From Microbacterium oxydans (GTDB lineage: Bacteria; Actinomycetota; Actinomycetes; Actinomycetales; Microbacteriaceae), in contig NZ_BJOG01000008.1 of assembly GCF_006540085.1 (NCBI RefSeq), positions 248,001 through 312,000 of the forward strand: 64,000 bases of DNA. Direction: 5' to 3'. This document shows positions 23,134-54,059 of the stretch, piece after piece. The notes under the pieces were generated by a model. The model searched no databases, had not been told where the DNA came from, and worked only from the letters and a program-made list of their open reading frames with translations. Each line of letters begins with the position of its first letter. The stretch's first letter is position 1. The position numbers were made by a program, and so were the translations under genes.

Positions 23134-23898
23134 TCAACCGCGGCAGAGCTGATGCCAAAGCGCTGCCCAGTGCTCCGGGCGCAGCTCACGGGGAAGGCGA
23201 CACTCCCTCGCCCCGGCTGCCGCCACTGCCCGCCGGGCCTTGCCCACAGGGATGCGTGCGGCGGCGGCCACGACCGCGGCGAGGCTCCCCCCTCGGCCCG
23301 TGAACATCGCGCGGACGAACGCCTCGTACCGCTGCCGATCCGATACCGCGACGAGAGGCGACCCCCGACGGGTGATGGCGAGCAGACCGCCGTCGACACT
23401 CGGCTGCGGTGTGAAACCCCACGCGGGGACGCGCCCTTCCAGGGCGAACTCGAACCACGGCGCGGACTGCGCCGTCATCATGGTCGCGCCGCCCACACCG
23501 GCGCGCTTGCGCGCCACCTCCCATTGCGTGAGCAGCACCGCCTCGTTCCAGCGGTCGCCCGAGAGCAGGCGCCGCAGGATGGGCGTCGTCACGTGGAAGG
23601 GGATGTTGCCGACCACGGTGTCCGCATCGAGCGGGTGCCGTGTGGCGTCGGCGATCTCGATGCGCACACCGGGCAATGCCCTGCGCAATCGGTGCACGCG
23701 GTGCTCGTCGACGTCGATCGCGGTGAGCGGTCTGCCCAGATCCGCGAGCACGCGAGTGAGCGCTCCGTCGCCGCAGCCGAGTTCGAGGATCGAGCCCGAG
23801 GTACGACCGACGAGGGCGGCGATGCGGGTCAGGGTCGGGCGGTGGGTGAGGAAGTTCTGGCCGAGTTCGTGACGGCCGCCATGGATTGAACGAGGCAT
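23134..23898 (-). CDS. erm: Erm-family 23S rRNA adenine N6-methyltransferase
   Basis: A 254-residue methylase of the RsmA/Erm family. It begins with the typical HELGQNFL segment. The SAM loop LELGCGDG spans residues 38-45, the acidic ribose contact is in AIDVDEHR, and the catalytic motif NIPF is at 98-101, the actinobacterial Erm form. It would methylate A2058 and give macrolide-lincosamide-streptogramin B resistance. KsgA is less likely because of the NIPF motif and the upstream leader. The ATG at 23898 has GGAG 7 bases ahead; that site can be hidden in a hairpin. Confidence 0.88.
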   Translation of the reverse strand: MPRSIHGGRHELGQNFLTHRPTLTRIAALVGRTSGSILELGCGDGALTRVLADLGRPLTAIDVDEHRVHRLRRALPGVRIEIADATRHPLDADTVVGNIPFHVTTPILRRLLSGDRWNEAVLLTQWEVARKRAGVGGATMMTAQSAPWFEFALEGRVPAWGFTPQPSVDGGLLAITRRGSPLVAVSDRQRYEAFVRAMFTGRGGSLAAVVAAAARIPVGKARRAVAAAGARECRLPRELRPEHWAALWHQLCRG

Positions 23899-24041
23899 GA
23901 GTGCGCTCCAGAAGAAGAATCGGAGCACCTCGGAGGAGGGAGACGACGCGAAGAAGCGTCAGTGAGGACTGCCCGTCCCGAGGTGCGATGACATCTCGGT
24001 GGACGGCGCGCAGATGCGTGCGGAGAGCGAGCGCGCCGTCA
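23899..24041 (-). promoter_or_regulatory. Candidate macrolide-responsive attenuator of erm
   Basis: Reading the minus strand, a 10-bp perfect stem (GACGGCGCGC / GCGCGCCGTC, 24031-24040 with 24002-24011) covers the leader stop codon. A later 9-bp pairing GCACCTCGG / CCGAGGTGC follows. A third pairing, GTGCTCC with GGAGC(G)CAC, would hide the erm ribosome-binding site. Ribosome stalling on the leader could switch between these pairings. Confidence 0.55.
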
Positions 24042-24077
24042 GGCGCGGCGGTCGCGGAACACGAGAGTGCGCCCCAT
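24039..24077 (-). CDS. Erm leader peptide (12 aa)
   Basis: A 13-codon ORF encoding MGRTLVFRDRRA. The FRDRR stretch contains an Arg-x-Arg (+x+) motif, the kind known to stall ribosomes in the presence of macrolides in other erm leaders. It starts 140 nt before the erm start codon and its stop is embedded in the first attenuator stem. No ribosome-binding site is seen; a CAATAT -10-like element lies 14 nt upstream, so a short or absent 5' leader is possible. Confidence 0.6.
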   Translation of the reverse strand: MGRTLVFRDRRA

Positions 24078-24124
24078 CACGGGCGCTGCGCATATTGTTC
24101 CCATGCCTGCCAGCATATCCGCCC

Positions 24125-24727
24125 TCAGATCCAGCCGCGCTCCTCGGCCATCAGCACGGCCTGCTGACGGGTTCCGACCGAGAGCTTCCCGAGGATGACG
24201 GAGATATGGTTGCGCACCGTCCCCGGGGCGAGTGAGAGCGCCCGTGCGATCTGGCCGGTCGTCTCCCCACGCCGACCGGCACGCAGCACGTCGAGCTCGC
24301 GGTCGGTGAGCGGAGAGCGCTCGTCGCTGAGCGCGTCGGCCGCGATCTCCGGATCGACGTAGCGGGCGCCAGCCGCGACGCGCCGGATCACCGCGGCCAC
24401 CTCGTCGGCGCCACGGGACTTGGGGAGGAATCCGGAGACGCCCGACGCCAGGGCACGTCGCAGCACTCCCGGGCGTGCATGTCGAGTCACCACCACGCAC
24501 CGCGTCGCGATCGCCCTGTTCAGCTTCTCGGCCACCTGCACGCCGTCGAGCCCCGGCATCTCCAGGTCGAGCAGGCAGACGTCCGGCTGAAGTCGCAGAG
24601 CCTCGACGACCGCCTGCTCGCCGTCCTCGCACTCGGCGATGACCTCGATATCGTCTTCCAACCGGAGGAGGGCTGCGAGCGCGGATCGGATCATCGCCTC
24701 GTCATCGGCGAGCAGCACCCGGATCAT
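24125..24727 (-). CDS. NarL/LuxR-family response regulator
   Basis: A 200-residue regulator. The receiver domain covers residues 1-120, with phospho-acceptor Asp54 in CLLDLEMPG, the acidic pair at 8-9 and Lys in FLPKS near residue 103. The LuxR HTH occupies 137-195 (LTDRELDVL, IARALSLAPGTVRNH). It overlaps the kinase stop by four bases (ATGA). Its gene ends only 47 bases before the erm leader ORF on the same strand. Confidence 0.93.
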   Translation of the reverse strand: MIRVLLADDEAMIRSALAALLRLEDDIEVIAECEDGEQAVVEALRLQPDVCLLDLEMPGLDGVQVAEKLNRAIATRCVVVTRHARPGVLRRALASGVSGFLPKSRGADEVAAVIRRVAAGARYVDPEIAADALSDERSPLTDRELDVLRAGRRGETTGQIARALSLAPGTVRNHISVILGKLSVGTRQQAVLMAEERGWI

Positions 24728-53986: not shown

Positions 53987-54059
53987 TGCGCCCGAAGGGA
54001 CTCGAACCCCTAACCTTCTGATCCGTAGTCAGATGCTCTATCCATTGAGCTACGGGCGC
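53987..54059 (-). tRNA. tRNA-Arg (anticodon ACG)
   Basis: A 73-nt cloverleaf on the minus strand. The acceptor stem GCGCCCG pairs with CGGGCGC, the D-arm is GCTCAATGGATAGAGC, the anticodon stem-loop CTGACTACGGATCAG gives ACG, and the T-arm reads GGGTTCGAGTCCC. CCA is not encoded. ACG is modified to ICG and reads CGU/CGC/CGA. Confidence 0.97.

Follow-up and report, generated by a model that had tools for sequence, protein, structure and literature searches.

A short ORF with a near-terminal Arg-x-Arg motif and a predicted leaderless start as the probable regulatory leader of a chromosomal erm gene in Microbacterium oxydans

Overview

A 21-codon ORF was recognized upstream of a chromosomal erm gene in the window, the whole analyzed stretch of 64,000 nucleotides from Microbacterium oxydans. 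It is probably the regulatory leader of this gene: its transcript would be leaderless, macrolide-bound ribosomes would stall at its Arg-Asp-Arg (RDR) motif, and pairing between two downstream RNA arms, D and E, would free the erm ribosome-binding site. We infer all three of these steps: the transcription start at the ATG, the macrolide stall at RDR, and the opening of erm by the stall. Macrolide stalling at R-x-R that opens erm would best explain the leader. It is also somewhat likely that most Actinomycetes erm genes near this one share such a leaderless micro-ORF sensor, in which the first codon is the first transcribed one and 70S ribosomes signal bound macrolide through the near-terminal Arg-x-Arg. 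The design of the peptide would predate the RNA arms, be better conserved than they are, and move with erm between genera and on plasmids.

The erm Gene and Its Surroundings

The gene, the leader and the elements at its two ends are located as follows.

23134 to 23898, minus strand: erm, 23S rRNA (adenine-2058) methyltransferase of 254 aa (NF000499, PF00398)
24039 to 24104, minus strand: leader ORF of 21 codons, MGTICAAPVMGRTLVFRDRRA plus TGA; its ATG is the predicted first transcribed codon; kept in 79 of 81 orthologues
24048 to 24056, minus strand: Arg-Asp-Arg (R17-D18-R19), the +x+ motif and predicted stall site; R-x-R is present in 79 of 79 genus leaders
24112 to 24117, minus strand: TATGCT, -10-type box (TANNNT) located 7 nt upstream of the leader start, without a recognizable -35

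The earlier note on this DNA had called the ORF an erm leader, and the 21-codon ORF does precede an Erm methyltransferase gene. The product scores 215.4 bits against the NCBIfam Erm equivalog NF000499 (cut-off 212) and 86.3 bits against Pfam PF00398, and stays under the cut-offs of the named types Erm(46), Erm(55), and Erm(38). The top PF00398 match of the genome is a different gene on another contig, presumably that of the housekeeping 16S enzyme. Named relatives are from Microbacterium, including M. oxydans at 84-88% identity. The erm ATG is located at 23898 and its ribosome-binding site, GGAG, at 23909-23906.

A response regulator gene (24727-24125) and a histidine kinase gene (25917-24724) are present on the minus strand immediately upstream of the leader, and the former ends 8 nt upstream of the TANNNT box. 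An erm on a Kocuria plasmid (L193) is also flanked by response regulator and kinase genes, in the opposite orientation. The Rfam search of the window at the gathering score returned nothing besides one tRNA gene (53987-54059, minus strand).

Conservation of the Leader in Microbacterium

The same-genus survey covered 295 genomes, 81 of which carry an erm orthologue (E <= 1e-20), and the sequences upstream of all 81 were examined. A true leader was expected by the earlier note to be conserved in orthologues, and it is found in 79 of these 81, with a length of 19-22 codons and an end composed of R-x-R plus two residues. The two orthologues without it are an erm at a contig end with 85 nt of upstream sequence (L043) and an erm fragment (L085). 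Among selected same-genus leaders, 121-180 nt separate the leader stop from the start of the erm alignment.

A leader of only 12 residues had been described earlier. Its codons, for MGRTLVFRDRRA plus TGA, are present at 24077-24039 on the minus strand, but this start and this length are not upheld: the ATG at 24077 is internal codon 10 of the 21-codon ORF, whose conserved start is at 24104. The equivalent of the 24104 start is seen in 79 of 79 genus leaders, as ATG in 66 and GTG in 13. The ATG at 24077 was rejected as the leader start since codon 10 is not conserved, being Met in 33 and Thr in 19 of the 57 distinct 21-codon leaders.

A composite pattern was defined as TANNNT, 6-8 nt, ATG or GTG, and a short ORF with R-x-R near the stop. 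It is present in 79 of the 80 same-genus loci having at least 250 nt of upstream sequence. Among 160 shuffles that preserve dinucleotides, 2 show it, and none of the 80 reverse strands does. The same-genus leader pattern is not due to chance.

The leader is also specific in its position. Nine places in the window's genome fit the degenerate final-codon pattern R-D/E-R-x-A-stop, and only the erm leader among them has the TANNNT-plus-start arrangement. A profile built from 38 leaders gave 76 strong matches (E <= 1e-11) when 290 genomes of the genus were searched, never more than one in a genome and all directly upstream of an erm, as compared by eye with the orthologue coordinates. The next best match has an E-value of 1.5e-5; some match at E <= 0.01 is seen in 212 of the 290 genomes, and those beyond the strong ones are all weak (1.5e-5 or worse). 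Three erm genomes that were searched have no strong match, with a divergent RLRSA leader (G084), an erm fragment (G173), and a contig end (G214), respectively. Reuse of the leader upstream of other genes was not found with the 38-leader profile in the 290 genus genomes under strict filters, with which weak matches can be lost.

Layout Predicting a Leaderless Transcript

The distance from the TANNNT box to the leader start is 6 nt in 24 and 7 nt in 55 of the genus leaders (79/79), and the base at -1 is C in 74 of 79. A Shine-Dalgarno-like 4-mer (GGAG, GAGG, or AGGA) is found at -16 to -5 of the leader in 0 of 79 loci; such a 4-mer precedes erm itself in 71 of 79. For mycobacteria, PMC4633059 reports that ATG or GTG at +1 is necessary and sufficient for leaderless initiation, with C preferred at -1. 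From the TANNNT spacing, the ATG or GTG, the C at -1, and the lack of a Shine-Dalgarno sequence, the message is predicted to begin at the leader start codon as a leaderless transcript, a layout that the earlier reading had also missed.

No sigma-70 two-hexamer site was found in 23880-24180. No conserved -35 or AT-rich element was found at -45 to -18 of the 79 loci, where no column is above 0.45 bits. The reference list of PMC9031893 includes a title on the translation of the ermE message without the usual ribosome-binding site. The literature consulted does not describe a leaderless leader for an actinobacterial erm, though earlier reports may exist.

The first bases of the predicted message, 24104-24093 (ATGGGAAC), are conserved at the base level, and the GGA codon among them has A at the third base in 64 of 79 leaders. 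A hairpin within the leader ORF (24086-24069, GCGCCC..GGGGCGC) recurs across the genus in shifted registers, and its consensus fold includes two pairs with changes on both sides.

The Arg-x-Arg Motif and Homologues outside the Genus

Extra-genus homologues were collected from 398 family genomes (39 matched) and 394 class genomes (68 matched), two overlapping sets, and from 10 plasmid loci. Examined were 107 extra-genus loci, 65 with at least 45% identity and 42 below this value. The comparison with other actinobacterial erm leaders, which the earlier note had suggested, revealed the composite pattern in 58 of the 65 (shuffles 1/260, reverse strands 0/65) and in 17 of the 42 (shuffles 0/168, reverse strands 1/42). 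It is absent from 7 of the closer and 25 of the more distant homologues. Four of these seven (L125, L138, L143, and L153) do contain an R-x-R ORF that does not fit the pattern, and no R-x-R ORF was found in the other three (L104, L134, and L203).

In the named set, 34 loci are from outside Microbacterium and 25 of them have the pattern; of the 46 from within the genus, 45 do. These counts include near-copies, and many of the named same-genus genomes are also in the 81-orthologue set. Among the nine named non-Microbacterium loci without the pattern, L280 has an R-x-R ORF without a TANNNT box. Six of the 25 named extra-genus leaders (L239-L242, L244, and L245) are identical, MGNLICVFAATHTLAVRDRRA, and precede erm in Homoserinimonas, Kocuria, Propioniciclava, and three other named records. 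One identical leader across different genera suggests its recent transfer together with erm. Other example leaders are MGITSVAVIRIRRF of Erm(55), MGSPSIAVTRFRRF of Erm(36), and MLISGTAFLRLRTNR of Erm(X).

The +x+ motif pointed out earlier is confirmed in that R-x-R is retained while x varies, both inside and outside the genus. The residue at x is D in 71, E in 5, and L in 3 of the 79 genus leaders. In 75 extra-genus leaders, it is I (19), L (18), D (14), P (12), M (3), G (3), H (2), E (1), F (1), S (1), or V (1), and the first Arg is encoded by CGC, CGG, CGT, AGG, or CGA. Purifying selection on the peptide was not found within the genus: pN/pS among the 57 distinct leaders is 1.19 in frame, and 0.80 and 1.00 in the other two frames. 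Conservation within the genus is therefore at the base level. The peptide-level evidence is the persistence of the frame and of R-x-R across the class.

Some of the distant erm homologues (below 45% identity) have longer leaders with the same start layout and endings like IRIRRSRALAR or RLRSARLDR (L156, L157, L160, L164, L167, L170, L178-L181, L184, and L191).

RNA Arms and Their Pairing

The alignment of the 79 genus loci (alignment A1) includes conserved arms 1, 2, and 3, hairpin 4:D, and arms E and F. Their positions in the window are as follows.

24042 to 24047, minus strand: arm 1, CGCGCC, formed by the final two leader codons; possible partner of arm 2
24031 to 24040, minus strand: arm 2, GACGGCGCGC, which overlaps the leader stop and extends beyond it; partner of arm 1 or arm 3
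24002 to 24011, minus strand: arm 3, GCGCGCCGTC, the conserved partner of arm 2; hairpin 2:3 is in the lowest-energy fold
23995 to 23999, minus strand: arm 4, CCGAG, pairing locally with the 3' half of arm D
23978 to 23986, minus strand: arm D, GCACCTCGG, which pairs over a long range with arm E; candidate anti-sequestering arm
23922 to 23933, minus strand: arm E, CCGAGGTGCTCC, able to pair with either D or the erm ribosome-binding site
23901 to 23909, minus strand: arm F, GGAGCGCAC, containing the erm Shine-Dalgarno GGAG (23909-23906), of which GGA is invariant

The GC stem that the earlier note had placed at the end of the leader can form from the last codons and the post-stop bases (CGCGCC-TGAC-GGCGCG, 24047-24032); one transcript length has it in its lowest-energy structure, and another does not. 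Further pairings besides this stem are seen around the erm ribosome-binding site of the window. These had been proposed to hide the site, and the predicted folds do hide it more than shuffled sequence does, with a median in silico open probability of 0.006 versus 0.161 with shuffled upstream sequence (20 of the 79 loci, 100 shuffles). As a whole, the leader RNA of the window folds only somewhat better than its shuffles (z -1.69; 8/200 shuffles fold as well).

The D:E helix covaries. Across the loci, 92.5% of its cells are paired versus 83.3 +/- 1.45 in shuffles, and 0 of 2000 shuffles reach this value, though the shuffles do not account for the relatedness of the loci; an 8-bp version gives 94.0 versus 85.5 +/- 1.7 (again 0/2000), and slid D:E pairings are 40-51% paired. 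The E:F helix is 93.5% paired without covariation (573/2000 shuffles reach it), because it is too invariant. Support for 4:D is weak, with 72.5% of cells paired versus 65.5 +/- 3.25 in shuffles (46/2000). No covariation of helices 1:2 and 2:3 was found in the 79-locus alignment, in which arm 1 is nearly invariant.

Proposed Mechanism and Alternative Explanations

A promoter with a -10 box only would start the message at the leader's own ATG, and ribosomes would begin at this 5' end without a Shine-Dalgarno sequence. A drug-bound ribosome would halt at Arg-Asp-Arg, near the leader end. With Asp18 in the P site, it would cover the message to about the leader stop, including arm 1; inverse toeprints reportedly extend to about 17 nt beyond the P site (PMC6238534). 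With arm 1 covered, hairpin 2:3 would be free to form. The stall would favor the pairing of arm D with arm E, and arm E would then uncover arm F, so that the methylase would be made from the freed erm ribosome-binding site.

In transcripts ending before arm F, the predicted D:E pairing averages 0.82 with the ribosome at R-x-R, 0.66 in the free RNA, and 0.75 with the ribosome at the stop. Between the free and the stalled state, it is predicted to rise by more than 0.1 at 27 of 79 loci and to fall at 5. For the window's own leader, the prediction is unchanged (0.97 free, 0.97 at the stall, and 0.96 at the stop). The predicted effect in partial transcripts is modest, in the expected direction. 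Equilibrium folding of the full leader did not reveal opening of the erm site upon the stall at RDR; the mean open value is 0.052, versus 0.057 without a ribosome (73 of 79 loci). As the site is closed in both states at equilibrium, the release is a step that we infer, and it is perhaps kinetic.

The switch might instead work by premature transcription termination and not by access to the erm ribosome-binding site. ABC-F resistance genes are described as controlled by termination following uORF stalling (PMC10201436), and the folding fails to show translational release. However, no intrinsic-terminator-like site was found in 23880-24180, where the intrinsic type only was looked for, and the conserved CTCC:GGAG pairing sits on the erm ribosome-binding site. 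Translational control is therefore favored over intrinsic termination, and termination is considered unlikely. Another explanation concerns the start of the message: the leader could be translated from a Shine-Dalgarno-led or longer transcript, for example by read-through from the two-component genes, with the TANNNT box being incidental. It would agree with the position of the response-regulator gene, which has the same orientation and whose end at 24125 leaves only 8 nt to the box, and with the failure to find a -35 near the leader. This is quite unlikely, given that TANNNT is kept at 6-7 nt in 79 of 79 leaders though the upstream sequence is otherwise unconserved, that C is at -1 in 74 of 79, that a Shine-Dalgarno-like 4-mer is absent in 79 of 79, and that the same layout is present in other genomes and plasmids with different upstream genes.

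Two more explanations would take the role of sensor away from the peptide, and both are very unlikely. One assumes that a WhiB7-type activator at the promoter switches erm and that the ORF is of little importance. A WhiB7-controlled promoter has an AT-rich element adjoining a -35; no conserved element of either kind was found at -45 to -18 in the 79 loci, and R-x-R and its distance to the stop are retained. In its favor, erm(41) is reported in the WhiB7 regulon of Mycobacterium abscessus (PMC4974804), and the window's genome has two WhiB-family genes, typed to the family only. The other regards the conservation as that of RNA structure alone, with the peptide as a by-product. The pN/pS of about 1.2 in frame within the genus would fit it, but leaders of 19 to 22 codons remain in frame, and R-x-R persists outside the genus, where five different Arg codons are used and x can be any of eleven residues.

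Comparison with Known Leaders

If ribosomes starting at the 5' end of the message trigger this erm and its relatives, inducible macrolide resistance in a large bacterial class would depend on them, whereas textbook erm leaders are assumed to start at a Shine-Dalgarno site. In a published survey, only some erm genes had uORFs, and no pattern was universal (PMC11264731). Searching for TANNNT, 6-8 nt, ATG or GTG, and R-x-R locates the leader in most close actinobacterial homologues, and could become a simple rule predicting which erm genes are inducible. The about 11 natural residues at x are variants for probing the tolerance of +x+ stalling.

Leaders of the +X+ type in front of erm and leaderless attenuating short ORFs are known already. 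+X+ motifs stall macrolide- and ketolide-bound ribosomes, and the RLR of ErmDL is described as critical for telithromycin stalling with a minor role for erythromycin (PMC8298421). The ErmDL-type leader (+X+, Arg-Leu-Arg) is likewise a short ORF with Arg-x-Arg before erm, and its erm is thought to be opened by refolding after the stall (PMC8298421). It differs from the leader described here, which mostly has Asp at x and carries its motif two codons from the stop; for this one, a leaderless transcript and the stall are predictions. The polycysteine short ORFs of Mycobacterium smegmatis (Canestrari et al.) are likewise leaderless and attenuate the next gene, but they sense cysteine supply and not a ribosome-bound drug (PMC9031893).

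In Bacillota, the ErmC and ErmB leaders carry arrest motifs other than Arg-x-Arg. They have their own ribosome-binding site. In one ermC record that was examined, the expected leader was not found. According to a review, the ErmC and ErmB leader attenuators hide and expose the erm ribosome-binding site.

The Erm(X) leader on the Corynebacterium plasmid pTP10 (L199) has the same layout as the leader in the window, with TATAAT 7 nt before the ATG and R-x-R in the peptide MLISGTAFLRLRTNR, which we take to be the known Erm(X) leader. The pTP10 leader is shorter, has Leu at x, and ends five residues after the first Arg pair region.
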